Source of the DNA: Bradyrhizobium sp. CCBAU 53340
GTDB taxonomy: Bacteria > Pseudomonadota > Alphaproteobacteria > Rhizobiales > Xanthobacteraceae
DNA length: 64,000 bases
Direction: 5' to 3'
NCBI RefSeq assembly: GCF_015291645.1
Contig: NZ_CP030055.1
Coordinates: forward strand, 6,138,001 to 6,202,000
The notes under the pieces were generated by a model that was not told where the DNA came from, did no database searches, and saw nothing but the letters and a program-made list of their open reading frames with translations. The translations under genes were made by a program, and so were the position numbers. Below are positions 1-15,333 of the stretch, one piece after another. The stretch's first letter is position 1. Every line of letters begins with the position of its first letter.

Positions 1-315
1 CGGTTCGACCACCGCCGGATCCTCGCCACGGCGATCGCCAGGCTGCGCGCAAAGCTGAAGTATCGTCCTGTGGTATTTGAACTTTTGCCCGCCGAGTTCA
101 CACTCACTGAGTTGCAGTATACGGTGGAGGCGATCTCCGGCCGGCACCTGCACAAGCAGAATTTTCGCCGTCTGGTCGAAACCGAAGCGCTGGTCGAACC
201 GACCGGCGTGATGTCGACACAGACGGGCGGGAGACCGGCGGCACTCTATCGCTTTCGCCGCGACGTGCTCCAGGAACGGCCGGCGCCGGGCTTGCGCGTA
301 CGCTCCCGGCGCTAG
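1..315 (+). CDS. nadQ: NUDIX/winged-helix NAD regulator, NadQ/NrtR-like (C-terminal part)
   Basis: Only the last 104 codons are in the window; the frame is open to base 1, so the gene starts to the left. The visible part contains FDHRRILATAI, then ELLPAEFTLTELQ and HLHKQNFRRLV, ending with a GGRPAALYRFRR segment. This is the layout of the C-terminal winged helix that follows a NUDIX-like domain in NrtR-type and alphaproteobacterial NadQ (COG4111) regulators, which control NAD synthesis genes. The assignment to NadQ rather than a generic NUDIX-HTH protein rests on family resemblance recalled without a search. It is supported by a nadABC operon with paired palindromes about 11 kb downstream in the same window. 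The effector domain is outside the window. Confidence 0.7.
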   Translation, partial: RFDHRRILATAIARLRAKLKYRPVVFELLPAEFTLTELQYTVEAISGRHLHKQNFRRLVETEALVEPTGVMSTQTGGRPAALYRFRRDVLQERPAPGLRVRSRR

Positions 316-9962: not shown

Positions 9963-11216
9963 TCAGGCAGGCTGTGCAACCGCTCGTGCGACCGGCTTCT
10001 CCACGATGGGGAGGTTGATCAGCGCCGAGAGCACGCCGAACAGGATCGAGAGCCACCAGATCGGCGTATAGGACCCGAATTTCTCGAAGACGATGCCCCC
10101 GAGCCAGACGCCGAGGAAGCCGCCGACCTGATGGCTGACGAAGGCGAAGCCATAGAGCGTGGCGAGCCAGCGCGTGCCGAACATCAGCGCCACCAGCGCG
10201 GAGGTCGGCGGCACCGTCGACAGCCAGGTCAGGCCGGAGATCGCGCCGAATGCGATGGCCGAGAACGGCGTGATCGGGAACGAGATGAAGGCGAGCGTTG
10301 CCAGCGCACGGGTGAAATAGATGGTCGAGAGGATGTAGCGCTTCGGCAAGCTATTCTGCAGATAGCCGACACTGAGCGAGCCCATGATGTTGAACAGGCC
10401 GATCGCCGCGATCACCCAGCCGCCGGTTTGCGTCGAGATGCCGCGATCGACCAGGAACGCCGGCAGATGCACGGTGATGAAGGCAAGCTGGAAGCCGCAG
10501 GTGAAGAAGCCGAGCACCAGCAGCACGTAGGAGCGGTGGCCGAAGGCTTCTGCCAGCGCCTTGGTGATGGTCTGTTCATCCGCAGGCGCCGCGTTTGTCG
10601 TGCTCGTGACCGGCGGCGTCGAGATTACCAGCGACAGCGGAATGATCAGGAGCATCAGGAAGCCGAATACGGTGAGCGCCTGCTGCCAGCCGAAATTGTC
10701 AATCAGCGCGACGCCGATCGGCGCGAACAGGAACTGGCCGAGCGAGCCCGCCGCAGTGCCGGCGCCGAGCGCAAGGCCGCGCTTCTCAGCCGGCAGGAGC
10801 TTGGTGAACGCCGACAGCACCAGGTTGAACGAGCAGCCGGCAAGACCAAAGCCGACCATGACGCCCGCGCCGATGTTGAGCGACATCGGCGTCGACGAAT
10901 AACGCATCAAGAGAAGACCACCGGCATAGAGCAGCGCGCCGACGCACATCACGCGGAACAAGCCGAAGCGATCGGCGACCGCGCCGGCGAACGGCTGGCC
11001 CAATCCCCACAACAGATTCTGAAAGGCGATGGCGAGGCCGAAAACGTCGCGGCCCCAGGAAAATTCATGGCTCATCGGCTGCACGAAGAAACCCAGCGCC
11101 GAGCGCGGACCGAAGCCGAGCATGCCGATCGCGCAACCGCAGAAGATGATGACGGCCGGGGTGCGCCAGTTGGAGGAACGTGAGGCCGGACCGAGTTCGC
11201 CCGCTTGTATCGACAT
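9963..11216 (-). CDS. MFS transporter (monocarboxylate/oxalate-formate-like)
   Basis: A 417-residue protein with twelve predicted membrane helices in two six-helix halves and a central polar loop (STPPVTSTTNAAPADEQ). The first loop region RSALGFFVQPMSHEFSWGRDVFGLA and the segment QPFAGAVADRFG resemble MFS carriers annotated as monocarboxylate or oxalate/formate-type transporters. Substrate is not determinable from sequence. It is divergent from nadA across a 329-bp region that holds two palindromes; the nearer palindrome centre is about 225 bp from this start. A link to NAD precursors is only a positional hint. Confidence 0.85.
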   Translation of the reverse strand: MSIQAGELGPASRSSNWRTPAVIIFCGCAIGMLGFGPRSALGFFVQPMSHEFSWGRDVFGLAIAFQNLLWGLGQPFAGAVADRFGLFRVMCVGALLYAGGLLLMRYSSTPMSLNIGAGVMVGFGLAGCSFNLVLSAFTKLLPAEKRGLALGAGTAAGSLGQFLFAPIGVALIDNFGWQQALTVFGFLMLLIIPLSLVISTPPVTSTTNAAPADEQTITKALAEAFGHRSYVLLVLGFFTCGFQLAFITVHLPAFLVDRGISTQTGGWVIAAIGLFNIMGSLSVGYLQNSLPKRYILSTIYFTRALATLAFISFPITPFSAIAFGAISGLTWLSTVPPTSALVALMFGTRWLATLYGFAFVSHQVGGFLGVWLGGIVFEKFGSYTPIWWLSILFGVLSALINLPIVEKPVARAVAQPA

Positions 11217-11431
11217 GGTGCTCCTCCTCGCCCTCTTGCGGACTGCAAATCGGCGGCCGCCGTTGAGCCGTTTAATGCAAATGCATGAAAATCAAAAATC
11301 AAAAATGATTGCGTTCCACGAAGGGCTCCTGCGGGAGCTTTGCGTTTCACGGTGCTGTCCGGCGCAACTGGACCTGACGAAATTGTGTGCGGCGAGACCT
11401 AGCGGGTTTTCGAACCGCGTGTTATCTTGGA

Positions 11432-11450
11432 TTTGCTCAGATTGAGTATA
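11432..11450. promoter_or_regulatory. putative NadQ operator, upstream copy
   Basis: A 19-bp near-palindrome TTTGCTCA-GAT-TGAGTATA. It has the same half-site design and three-base spacer as the copy at 11504-11522. Its centre (11441) is 72 bp from the other, close to seven helical turns. Position in front of nadABC, plus an NadQ-like protein at the window start, suggests it is the binding site of the NAD regulator. Confidence 0.6.
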
Positions 11451-11503
11451 TATAGCCCAGGCGAAACCCTCCGGCCTTTCGGCGGGATTTCTCAGGCGTC
11501 ATA

Positions 11504-11522
11504 TATACTCACAATGAGCATA
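11504..11522. promoter_or_regulatory. putative NadQ operator, nadA-proximal copy
   Basis: A 19-bp near-palindrome TATACTCA-CAA-TGAGCATA, ending 23 bp before the nadA start codon. Half-sites match those of the copy at 11432-11450 (consensus TWTRCTCA-N3-TGAGYATA from the two). Its position would block transcription of nadABC if occupied. Confidence 0.65.
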
Positions 11523-11545
11523 AATGACACGCGCGGGAGGCTTCG

Positions 11546-12649
11546 ATGCCAATCATTGAAATTTACGGCCCTGACGATCTTGCAGACCGGCCGCCGGGCC
11601 AAACCACCTCTTCCCCTGCCGCACCGGCGCGAACCGGACCCGCGCGACAGATGCCCTCGCTGGAATGGACTCCAGAGGTGGAGCGGGCCACCGCGCCGAT
11701 CTACGAGCGTGTCAGGCACGTGATCCCGCCGATCGAGTGGCCGCTGATGGCGCCGACGATCCACGCAATCAACCAGCTCAAGCGCGCGCGCAACGCGGTC
11801 ATCCTCGCACACAACTACCAGGCGCCGGAGATCTTTCATGGCGTCGCCGACATCGGCGGCGATTCGCTCCAGCTCGCCGTCGAGGCCACCAAGGTGAAGG
11901 CCGACATCATCGTCCAGTGCGGCGTGCACTTCATGGCGGAGACGTCGAAGCTGCTCAACCCGGACAAGACGGTGCTGATCCCTGATACACGTGCCGGCTG
12001 CTCGCTGGCCGCCAGTATTACCGGCGCCGACGTCCGCCTCCTCCGCGAAAAATTTCCCGGCGTGCCTGTGGTCGCTTACGTCAACACCTCCGCGGAGGTG
12101 AAGGCCGAGGTCGACATCTGCTGCACGTCTTCGAATGCGGTGCAGGTGGTAGAGAGCCTGAACGCGCCAAGCGTGATCTTCCTGCCCGACCGCTATCTGG
12201 CGACCTATGTCGCCTCGAAGACCGACGTGAAGATCATCGCCTGGAAGGGCGCGTGCGAGGTGCATGAGCGCTTCACCGGCGAGGAGCTGCGCGCCTTCCG
12301 CAACGCCGATCCCTCCGTGCAGATCATCGCGCATCCGGAATGCCCGCCTGATGTGCTGGCGGAGGCCGACTTCACCGGCTCGACCGCGCACATGATCAAC
12401 TGGGTCCGCGCCAGGCGCCCGAAGCGCCTGGTGATGATCACGGAATGCTCGATGGCCGACAATGTGCGCGCCGAGCTGCCCGACGTGGAGATGCTGCGTC
12501 CCTGCAATCTCTGCCCGCACATGAAGCGCATCACCCTGTCCAACATTCTCGAGAGCCTGCTGACGCTGGGTGAGGAAGTCACGATCGATCCGGCGCTTGC
12601 GGAACGGGCGCGGCGCTCGGTCGAGCGGATGATCAATTTGAAGAATTGA
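11546..12649 (+). CDS. nadA: quinolinate synthase A
   Basis: A 367-residue protein. NadA condenses iminoaspartate with dihydroxyacetone phosphate to quinolinate, the second step of de novo NAD synthesis, using a 4Fe-4S cluster. Cluster-ligand cysteines are visible at 125 ([10 protein letters not shown]), 192/193 (DICCTSS) and 320/323 (RPCNLCPHM). The substrate-binding segments AHNYQAPEI and GDSLQLA are present. About 60 residues precede the conserved core and form an N-terminal extension common in rhizobia. The start at 11546 has GGGAGG eight bases upstream. It is the first gene of nadA-nadB-nadC and probably repressed through the two palindromes upstream. Confidence 0.97.
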
Positions 12650-12666
12650 GGGCGAGCAACACACAC

Positions 12667-12700
12667 AGCCGTCGTCCCGGCGAAGGCCGGGACGACGGCT
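12667..12700. repeat. perfect palindromic element between nadA and nadB
   Basis: A 15-bp perfect stem (left arm AGCCGTCGTCCCGGC) with a four-base GAAG loop, in the 70-bp gap between nadA and nadB. The core GTCGTCCCGGC...GCCGGGACGAC recurs at 55679-55805. In the nad mRNA it would form a strong hairpin without a U-run, so it could tune the nadA/nadB ratio or protect mRNA rather than terminate. Confidence 0.8.
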
Positions 12701-12719: not shown

Positions 12720-14330
12720 ATGACAACAACCAACATCCACAACCTCACCCGCTCCACCGACGACGTCGTCATCGTCGGCGGCGGCCTCGCCGGATTGTTC
12801 TGCGCACTGAAGCTTGCGCCGCGGCCGGTGACGCTGATCTCGGCCGCACCGCTCGGACAGGGCGCCTCCTCCGCATGGGCGCAAGGCGGAATCGCGGCCG
12901 CTGTGGCCGAAGGCGATACTCCCGAAGCGCATGCCGCGGATACCATCGCGGTCGGCGGCGGCATCGTCGATGAAGCGGTCGCGCTTGGCATCGCGCGCGA
13001 GGCGGGCGTGCGGATTCACGATTTGCTCGCCTATGGCGTGCCGTTCGACCGCGATCTCGAAGGCCGGCTTGCCGTGGGACGGGAAGCCGCGCATTCGGCG
13101 CGCCGCATCGTGCATGTGCGCGGCGACGGCGCGGGCGCGGCGATCATCGCCGCGCTGAGCGAGGCCGTGCGCCGCACGCCGTCGATCCGCTTGATCGAAG
13201 GTTTTGTCGCCGAAGCGCTGCTGACCGAGGACAGCGCGGTCACCGGACTTCATCTGCGCGAAGCCGGCAAGTTTGCAGCAAAGCCGGTGGTGATCGCCTC
13301 GCGCGCGGTCGTGCTCGCGACCGGCGGTATCGGCCATCTCTACGCCGTCACCACCAATCCGGCCGAGGCCAATGGATCGGGCCTTGCGATCGCAGCCCGC
13401 GCCGGCGCCGTGATTGCCGATCCCGAATTCGTGCAGTTCCACCCGACCGCGATCATGGTCGGCCGCGACCCGGCACCACTCGCAACCGAGGCACTGCGCG
13501 GCGAAGGCGCCACGTTGATCAACAGCGAGGGCGATCGCTTCATGCGCGCGCAGCATCCGCTCGCCGAGCTCGCACCACGCGACATCGTGGCCCGTGGCGT
13601 CTTCGCCGAGATCGCAGCAGGGCGCGGCGCCTTCCTCGATGCGCGGCAAGCGCTCGGCACACGCTTCGCCGAGAAATTCCCGACGGTGCATGCAAGCTGC
13701 ATCGCCGCCGGTATCAATCCGGCAACGCAAATCATCCCGATCGCGCCGGCCGTGCATTATCACATGGGCGGCATCGCGGTGGACGCACGTGGCCGCAGCT
13801 CGATCGACGGGCTCTGGGCCGGCGGTGAGGTCTCGTCCACCGGCATGCATGGCGCCAACCGGCTTGCGTCGAATTCGCTGCTCGAAGCTGTGGTCTATGC
13901 CGCGCGCATCGCCGACGACATCGCTGGCCGGGCGATCCCCTCGCCTGCCCGCCTCCCCGAAGCGCTGGTGACGCCGCGCGGCGGTGCGCCGGATGCAGCC
14001 ACACTAAAGCATCTGCGCATGATGATGAGCGCGCATGTCGGCGTGATCCGCGATCGTGACGGGCTTGCGGAGGCCGTACGCAGCTTCGCCGCACTCGAGC
14101 ACACGGCCACCAGCACCGTCGTCCGCAACATGGCGACAGCGGCACTGCTCGTGGCATCCGCTGCGTGGAGCCGGCGCGAGAGCCGCGGCGCACACTTCCG
14201 CTCTGACCATCCTGCGGATGTGCCCGCGCTGGCACAGAGAACGATGACGACGCTCGCAGCCGCGCGCGAGGTTGCGGATGAACTCACTGCCCGTTCAGCA
14301 CCGCGAATCGCGCAAACGATGATTGCCTGA
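12720..14330 (+). CDS. nadB: L-aspartate oxidase
   Basis: A 536-residue flavoprotein that oxidises L-aspartate to iminoaspartate, the first step of de novo NAD synthesis. It shows the FAD-binding [14 protein letters not shown] near the N-terminus, the [13 protein letters not shown] segment of the succinate dehydrogenase/fumarate reductase/NadB family, QFHPTAIM in the capping region, and [22 protein letters not shown] before the helical C-terminal domain. The ATG at 12720 with GGAAAG upstream is preferred over a TTG at 12708. The product iminoaspartate is unstable, so co-expression with nadA (70 bp upstream) and nadC (10 bp downstream) makes sense. Confidence 0.97.
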
Positions 14331-14340
14331 AGGAAATCCC

Positions 14341-15219
14341 ATGATCACCCCGACCTCCCTGCTCTATCCCGACGCCTTCCTCTCGCCCCTTGCCATCGAC
14401 GAAGCCGTGCATCGCGCACTCGATGAGGATCTCGGCCGCGCCGGCGACATCACATCGTTCGCGACGATCCCTGAGGCGACCAAGGCGCAGGCGGTCCTGG
14501 TCGCGCGTCAGGCCGGCATCATCTCCGGCCTGCCGCTCGCGCTGGCGACGCTGCAACGACTATCGCCCGACATCGAGGTGCGCGCGCATGTCCGCGACGC
14601 CGCGCGCGTGGTCCGCGGGCAGCAGGTGCTCACGATCTCCGGCCCCGCTCGCGCCATTCTCACCGCGGAACGGACCACACTGAATTTCGTCGGCCGCCTC
14701 TCGGGAGTCGCCACGCTCACGGCCGACTACGTCGCACGCACCGAGGGCACCAAGATGCGCATCTGCTGCACGCGAAAGACCACGCCTGGATTGCGCGCGC
14801 TGGAGAAATACGCGGTGCGTTGCGGCGGCGGCTTCAACCACCGCTTCGGTCTCGACGATGCCATCCTGATCAAGGATAATCACATCGCGGTCGCCGGCGG
14901 CATCCGCCCCGTGCTGGAGCGCGCCCGCGCCCATGCCGGCCATCTGGTCAAGATCGAAATCGAGGTGGATACGCTGGCGCAGCTGCGCGACGTGCTCGCC
15001 ACGGACCTCGCCGATGCGGTGCTGCTCGACAACATGGACATCGCGACGCTGCGCGAGGCTGTGCGAATGGTGGAGGGCCGCCTGAAGCTGGAAGCCTCCG
15101 GCGGCGTCACGCCGGACTCGATTGCGGCAATCGCCGCGACCGGTGTCGACTACGCTTCATCGGGCGCGCTGACGCATTCGGCGCCGAATTTCGACTGCGC
15201 TCTGGATATCGAGATGTGA
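14341..15219 (+). CDS. nadC: nicotinate-nucleotide pyrophosphorylase (carboxylating)
   Basis: A 292-residue quinolinate phosphoribosyltransferase. It converts quinolinate and PRPP to nicotinate mononucleotide, CO2 and pyrophosphate, completing the nadABC pathway. Family marks are [17 protein letters not shown], the [17 protein letters not shown] segment and [13 protein letters not shown], then the barrel end [23 protein letters not shown]. The ATG at 14341 follows AAGGAAA; an upstream in-frame TTG (14323) would overlap nadB and is not needed. Last gene of the operon; followed by hairpin repeats. Confidence 0.97.
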
Positions 15220-15247
15220 GAGGAGGAGGCACCGAAGCTTCCTCAGC

Positions 15248-15333
15248 GTCATGGCCGGGCTTCGTCCCGGCCATCCACGTCTCGCCACGCCGCACGAAGA
15301 ACGTGGATGCCCGGGACAAGCCCGGGCACGACG
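15248..15333. repeat. double-hairpin repeat in the nadC/SleB convergent gap
   Basis: Two hairpins, ATGGCCGGG-CTTCGT-CCCGGCCAT and GCCCGGG-ACAA-GCCCGGGC, linked by a CCACGT...ACGTGG inverted pair. A related single hairpin is at 59658-59702. It lies between convergent genes and may end both transcripts, but there is no clear U-run. Confidence 0.65.

Follow-up and report, generated by a model that had tools for sequence, protein, structure and literature searches.

A terminator-like element at a near-constant distance before a NadQ operator in alphaproteobacterial nadA leaders: a possible two-stage switch

The nadABC operon of Bradyrhizobium sp. CCBAU 53340 is preceded by two similar inverted repeats, and this arrangement raises the question of what the two sites, and the sequence between them, would contribute to the control of the operon. 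The window analysed here, the whole stretch of 64,000 nucleotides, carries on its forward strand nadA (quinolinate synthase, 11546..12649; PF02445, 3.6e-111), nadB (L-aspartate oxidase, 12720..14330; NF005701, 3e-229) and nadC (quinolinate phosphoribosyltransferase, 14341..15219; TIGR00078, 3.5e-95), whose identity was confirmed by Pfam and NCBIfam. A likely nadA ribosome-binding site, GGGAGG, was read on the same strand at 11535..11540. The 12 best NadA relatives were 89–93% identical and all belonged to Bradyrhizobium. Upstream of nadA, a putative promoter (P1) was recognised on the forward strand by a -35-like element CTAGCG (11399..11404), conserved as CTRGCG in an alignment of 23 sequences, and, 18 nt further, a -10-like element TATCTT (11423..11428), which is TATATT in several aligned relatives. 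The position of P1 was read from this conservation, as was the putative location of an operator downstream of the transcription start. GC-rich inverted repeats were also observed after nadA (12668–12699) and after nadC (15247–15333); the Rfam matches to these 3' repeats (sX6, mir-5882) lay under the gathering scores and are probably chance matches to palindromic sequence.

The original prediction placed two 19-bp sites in front of nadABC with centres 72 bp apart, and on re-reading both the coordinates and the spacing proved exact. The upstream 19-mer, TTTGCTCA-GAT-TGAGTATA, occupies 11432–11450 and the downstream 19-mer, TATACTCA-CAA-TGAGCATA, occupies 11504–11522, with centres at 11441 and 11513. 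Comparative genomics of alpha-, beta- and gammaproteobacteria, as described in PMC5343134, gave the NadQ motif ttATRCTCannntGAGYATaa and nadABC as the core target. Pattern scans with this consensus defined the predicted operators O1 (11431..11451), which overlaps the putative P1 start point, and O2 (11503..11523), neither with an assigned strand. O1 agrees with the consensus at 15 of the 18 specified positions and O2 at 17 of 18, and the core is complete in both (10/10). The short core TGCTCAN3TGAG with one mismatch was not rare, with 5 matches in the window against 4.28 expected. The longer core TRCTCAN3TGAGYA, in contrast, was found in the 8.7-Mb genome (two contigs) at O1 and O2 only, against no match for the reversed control pattern. 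Likewise, when up to three mismatches were allowed in the published 21-mer, only O1 and O2 were matched genome-wide, while the control pattern gave one match per strand; a 21-mer scan of the window also returned O1 and O2 alone. Agreement with the published consensus, together with conservation before nadA, supports the reading of both sites as NadQ-type operators.

The regulator is probably encoded in the same region. The 3' end of nadQ occupies 1..315 on the forward strand, and the gene starts upstream of the window. Of a 330-codon open frame, only the C-terminal 104 residues, up to base 315, fall within the window; its likely start gives a protein of 321 amino acids (L004:3350-4315). This protein matched PDB 7q91, a NadQ crystal structure, over residues 14–317 (E 3.7e-81), which supports the earlier assignment of the product as the nad regulator NadQ. 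The broader label, a NadQ/NrtR-type NUDIX-winged-helix regulator, was right about the winged helix and NadQ (COG4111) and wrong about NrtR: a Pfam search of the protein detected the winged helix (NrtR_WHD) and found no NUDIX domain, and the NrtR model NF050029 matched only the C-terminal part, with 64.8 bits against a cut-off of 400. NrtR was ruled out as the window's regulator on these grounds, namely the missing Pfam NUDIX match and full-length NrtR similarity. Elsewhere in the genome, Nudix and winged-helix domains were observed together in two NrtR-like paralogues (L005:3460-4341 and L006:4091-4756). Both match the Nudix-type protein 3gz5, which we take to be an NrtR, better than NadQ. NadQ itself is reportedly Nudix-like and ATP-responsive, according to the title of Minazzato's 2022 work. 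NrtR is a Nudix-related NAD repressor with an ADP-ribose-binding domain, as PMC5343134 describes it; it shares a homologous winged-helix DNA-binding domain with the window protein, which lacks the Pfam NUDIX match and aligns lengthwise to NadQ. The motif had also been expected upstream of nadQ, but no matching place exists in this genome beyond O1 and O2, so nadQ itself would be unmarked as a target by the NadQ motif here. The predicted operators and NadQ at nadABC thus represent known regulon biology, here in a Bradyrhizobium: the Proteobacterial NadQ regulon, in the text of PMC5343134 and in PDB 7q91-7q94, has the operator consensus, nadABC as core target and a regulator homologous over its full length in common with this locus.

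The suggested search before nadA in related genomes bore out the motif. Among 80 nadA loci fetched by NadA similarity, 79 had upstream DNA (L031 was dropped), and within 700 nt upstream of the NadA match (442 nt in L048) at least one operator was present in 74 of the 79: 52 had one, 22 had two and 5 had none. The background was 0.3 matches per set in mononucleotide shuffles and one match in the remaining 780 kb of the loci. A wider sample from searches of the class and phylum comprised 72 distinct nadA leaders, the window included; 58 of them carried an operator, a count that is not a frequency, since part of the sample was fetched by operator search, and 2 of the 58 (L166 and L168) were from outside the Alphaproteobacteria. 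Away from nadA, among the few operators read, one lay between nadC and nadQ (L167), and the rest mostly looked like chance hits.

Both operators were found in the 12 closest Bradyrhizobium loci (L009-L020), 65–76 bp apart, and a strict tandem-operator pattern in 106 of 265 Bradyrhizobium genomes. Among the 92 listed of these 106 matching congeners, the O1–O2 spacing was 61–76 bp and fell into groups of 71–76 bp (73 genomes), 61–67 bp (16) and 68–70 bp (3). The two larger groups lie about one helical turn apart, which is suggestive and not independent of descent. The original prediction held that two dimers could bind one face of the DNA and form a loop. A conserved helical phase of O1 and O2 did not emerge: a 10.5-bp period fitted the 92 listed congener spacings no better than periods of 9.5–13 bp, and the wider spacings elsewhere shared no common phase (R 0.12, p about 0.77). 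The lists of other spacings comprised 17 of 55–103 bp, the window's 72 included, and 13 of 22–32 bp; loci L009-L020 and spacings of 88, 127, 197 and 214 bp were left out of the analysis.

The prediction further proposed that the MFS transporter gene divergent from nadA (9963..11216, reverse strand; Pfam MFS_1, with the neighbourhood in relatives) could share control. No positive evidence was found for its membership of the NadQ regulon: an MFS match was present in 17 of the 22 near loci (L009-L029 and L042), and the 5 without one (L023-L027) still keep the operator at nadA. NadQ control common to both genes is possible. Near the MFS start, a palindrome, ATGCAnnTGCAT (11275–11286), was observed by alignment in a separate block conserved in Bradyrhizobium; it is possibly the operator of another regulator. 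MFS transporters 44–67% identical to that of the window (79% in L042) were also seen near nadA, in either orientation, in many of the loci L028-L088, a hint that they may be functionally connected with NAD metabolism.

Between O1 and O2 lies a new part of this leader that was absent from the original prediction, a terminator-like element. In the window it consists of a GC-rich hairpin with one internal mismatch (11467..11486, forward strand), recognised by folding and conserved position, followed directly by the T-rich tract ATTTCTCA (11487..11494, forward strand), which is interrupted in Bradyrhizobium. The fold of 11462–11494 reached -12.4 kcal/mol (z -2.27), and 4 of 200 shuffles were as stable. 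The GC-rich stem ends at 11486, and the O2 21-mer starts 16 nt past that end. Two other origins for the hairpin were rejected. As a dispersed repeat it would recur, but its pattern with up to three mismatches was found once in the genome; as the terminator of an upstream gene it was rejected in the 22 near loci, since the nearest upstream gene that similarity identified there runs divergently. An MFS gene lies upstream on the same strand in L079 and L080, and there a separate inverted repeat was seen by eye before the promoter-like sequence. A search of Rfam with the leader returned no match up to E 5, the matches listed lying elsewhere and below gathering scores.

In an alignment of 23 leaders, those of the window and the 22 near loci, the O1–hairpin interval differs in length from leader to leader, whereas the GC-rich inverted repeat with its T-rich tail holds its distance to O2. 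A like arrangement with different sequences was observed across the order among the 74 leaders listed, such as those of Rhizobium giardinii (ACCGGCACTGCCGGT-TTTGTTTT) and Rhodoblastus (ACGCCGTTTAGACGGCGT-ATTTTT). When these 74 leaders and the window were taken together, 51 of the 75 had a perfect stem (5 bp or longer) whose end lay exactly 16 nt upstream of the operator, against 1.05 in dinucleotide shuffles, and 57 of 75 had one at 12–19 nt, against 4.4. The window's own hairpin fails this strict test through its internal mismatch. The 57 stem-positive leaders had on average 4.8 T in the 8 nt after the stem, compared with a background of 2.0. In the wider sample, 21 of the 58 leaders with an operator had a perfect stem at 12–19 nt.

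Pooling both samples gave 132 regions, of which 124 remained after removal of 8 near-duplicates (the window's copy, L110, was dropped); 122 of these 124 operators are alphaproteobacterial. A stem was present 14–18 nt before the operator in 68 of the 124 leaders, and at exactly 16 nt in 47 of the 68. These 68 stems comprised 27 different arm pairs, and when the 3' arms were swapped between loci over 200 rounds, a mean of 28 and a maximum of 38 stems formed, against 68 with native arms. Base pairing is thus kept while the stem sequence changes; the arms CCGGC/GCCGG are common to 37 of the 68 stems, so that part of the signal is shared sequence. The mean folding energy in 24-nt windows was -7.8 kcal/mol at the element versus about -2.6 kcal/mol further upstream, and the T frequency was 78–91% at positions 2, 3, 4 and 6 after the stem. 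With the joint requirement of a stem and at least 4 T within the next 8 nt, 64 of the 124 leaders were positive at 14–18 nt and 60 failed, compared with 0.4 positive in shuffles and 6 of 124 at 25–80 nt. All 64 fall within the 122 Alphaproteobacteria, and 14 of 42 leaders from outside the window's order but within its class were positive; the near loci had the stem in 22 of 22 and missed the joint test in 4. The structure of an intrinsic terminator, a GC-rich hairpin followed by a T-rich tract with conserved pairing, was therefore found across the leader set.

In the two non-alphaproteobacterial leaders (L166 and L168), no element was present at 14–18 nt and the joint test failed; none was seen by eye at that place in L167, between nadC and nadQ. 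In L166, where nadA is divergent from nadQ, a bulged inverted repeat with TGTTTT was observed to end about 22 nt before the operator and was not counted.

The element and the operator occur together. Nineteen nadA leaders were scored as operator-less: 17 lacked the element, and 2 (L037 and L073) had a strong terminator-like one. Reading these two revealed in both a degenerate NadQ operator whose start lies 16 nt behind the element. An O1-like site upstream of the hairpin was found in 42 of the 68 hairpin-positive leaders, against 0.55 expected. The other 26 had none within 110 nt, and a degenerate one was seen further upstream in five (L021-L023, L026 and L042). The Rhizobiaceae and Phyllobacteriaceae that were read showed no O1-like site within 110 nt, and a promoter-like sequence appears to end just before the hairpin, so that their only operator would be downstream of the start. 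In the wider sample, nine leaders have a single operator pair 55–74 bp apart, and by the strict test the element lies between the operators in 6 of them; the window is among the 3 that fail. A second architecture was found in nine further leaders (L101, L119, L142, L158, L161-L163, L175 and L185), where the operators are 24–29 bp apart at a promoter-like place and the element was present in 0 of 9. Three of these (L161-L163) come from the congeners G139, G207 and G236, and the NadA at these loci is only 66–68% identical to that of the window, so that some Bradyrhizobium carry a different nadA locus.

How might these parts work together? We consider it somewhat more probable than otherwise that the nadABC leader is a two-stage NadQ switch, in which O1 blocks initiation and O2 holds the polymerase so that the terminator works. 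NadQ on O1, over the putative P1 start, would block initiation. An RNA polymerase that escaped would soon transcribe the short GC-rich hairpin and the T-rich tract. Because O2 starts 16 nt after the hairpin, NadQ bound there would meet the polymerase front while the active site sits on the T-rich tract; judged by general footprint sizes, a polymerase about 8 nt past the hairpin should reach or cover O2 with its front. PMC12366685 places termination in bacteria about 8 nt beyond the hairpin. The halt would give the hairpin time for transcript release, and the bound repressor would make termination efficient or conditional. With NadQ off the DNA, initiation would be free and polymerase would read through a terminator that is presumably weak by itself. 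The order of promoter, O1, terminator, O2 and nadA, with its near-constant terminator–O2 distance, would fit a roadblock on the U-tract. In favour of this reading are the position of the element relative to O2, the pairing kept across differing arms, the T-rich tail and the co-occurrence with the operator. Against it count the 60 of 124 leaders that fail the joint test (with 4 of the 22 near loci), the mismatched stem and interrupted T-tract of the window itself, the architecture with closely spaced operators, the leaders from outside the class and the arms common to 37 of 68 stems. For the broader reading, that NadQ in many Alphaproteobacteria stalls RNA polymerase on the U-tract of a promoter-proximal terminator and represses nadA in this way, we judge the chances to be even.

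The same parts could act otherwise. The hairpin might be a constitutive weak terminator that lowers basal expression, with NadQ at O1 and O2 repressing separately. The element does resemble an ordinary intrinsic terminator, and some T-tracts look strong enough alone (for example TTTTTTT in L100), but independent parts leave the fixed 16-nt distance unexplained, as well as why 17 of the 19 leaders scored as operator-less lack a terminator and the other 2 have a degenerate operator; we regard this reading as unlikely. Classical repression with a DNA loop, in which a NadQ dimer on O1 contacts another on O2 across about seven turns of passive sequence, draws on the one-turn difference between the congener spacing groups. 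The phase analysis described above speaks against it, as do the 26 hairpin-positive leaders without a near O1-like site, even if five have a degenerate one further upstream, and it appears decidedly unlikely.

Two further readings give the hairpin or O2 another role altogether. As an mRNA element, the hairpin could protect the nadABC transcript as a 5' stem-loop, or it could form the 3' terminus of a small RNA from P1. The promoter-like sequence that seems to end just before the hairpin in Rhizobiaceae would suit protective 5' stem-loops, and termination of the P1 transcript would yield a short RNA. A stabilising role, however, requires neither a T-tract nor constant spacing from a DNA operator, the part of the leader that precedes the hairpin is of variable length and nearly absent in Rhizobiaceae, and the leader has no Rfam match, which makes this very unlikely in our estimate. 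The distance could instead be set by a second promoter, P2, that overlaps O2 with TATRCT as its -10 and has its -35 element at the fixed position. TATACT or TATGCT in O2 does resemble a -10 hexamer, with a gap of 17 nt in the window between it and the hairpin's 3' arm, but the -35 position is then a GC-rich stem arm, unlike TTGACA, and a promoter predicts no conserved base pairing. The leader sequences appear to offer no -35-like sequence, and P2 was rejected as highly improbable.

The proposed two-stage switch has partial parallels in known systems. The main text of the NadQ regulon paper (PMC5343134) contains no mention of a terminator, hairpin or roadblock, whereas O2 is tied here to a terminator-like element. 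In bacterial roadblocks by LacI, CcpA and CodY, elongation is halted by a repressor bound to the DNA past the promoter, as proposed here; release is credited to Mfd, and possibly Rho, in the texts of PMC10310618 and PMC4132739, whereas the nadA leader has a hairpin and T-tract at a fixed distance before the operator. For E. coli, PMC4132739 describes LacI roadblocks 30–60 bp from the promoter as leakier, and its authors tentatively blame retained sigma hindering Mfd; a built-in terminator would supply release where such a short promoter–roadblock distance leaks. A three-part likeness is offered by Pol I terminators (Reb1/Nsi1/TTF1), which, as PMC12366685 describes them, have an RNA hairpin, a T-rich tract and a roadblock protein in the order seen here; the polymerase pauses within the T-rich tract, 15 bp short of the roadblock site, and rapid release needs hairpin and roadblock alike. 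These are eukaryotic and constitutive, stand at the gene end and have their hairpin set 20 nt back from the halted 3' end, whereas in the nadA leader the site is the promoter-proximal one of a metabolic repressor and the hairpin is closer. A warning for the roadblock-terminator model comes from the same paper (PMC12366685): where backtracking was needed, Lac repressor took about 30 min and LexA gave no efficient hairpin termination.

Among the matches listed in a search of literature titles and abstract openings, neither a terminator tied to a NadQ operator (Minazzato 2022 was judged by title alone) nor a repressor-gated intrinsic terminator in bacteria was found; absence from print is unproven in both cases. 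Attenuators and riboswitches built on intrinsic terminators share with the nadA leader a promoter-proximal terminator in the leader of a biosynthetic operon; no Rfam aptamer was found here, and the sensor would instead be a DNA-bound protein.

The usual view is that repressors act on initiation and that bacterial roadblocks need Mfd or Rho for release. A terminator-like element fixed before an operator in much of a class suggests another release route. If the two-stage switch is correct, the nadABC leader would be a regulated bacterial counterpart of the Pol I roadblock-plus-hairpin terminators and a form of attenuation in which the sensor is a DNA-bound protein. Other regulons could be screened for the signature, a terminator ending about 16 nt ahead of an operator. 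For the Alphaproteobacteria that carry it, such a switch would add control of elongation to NAD synthesis.
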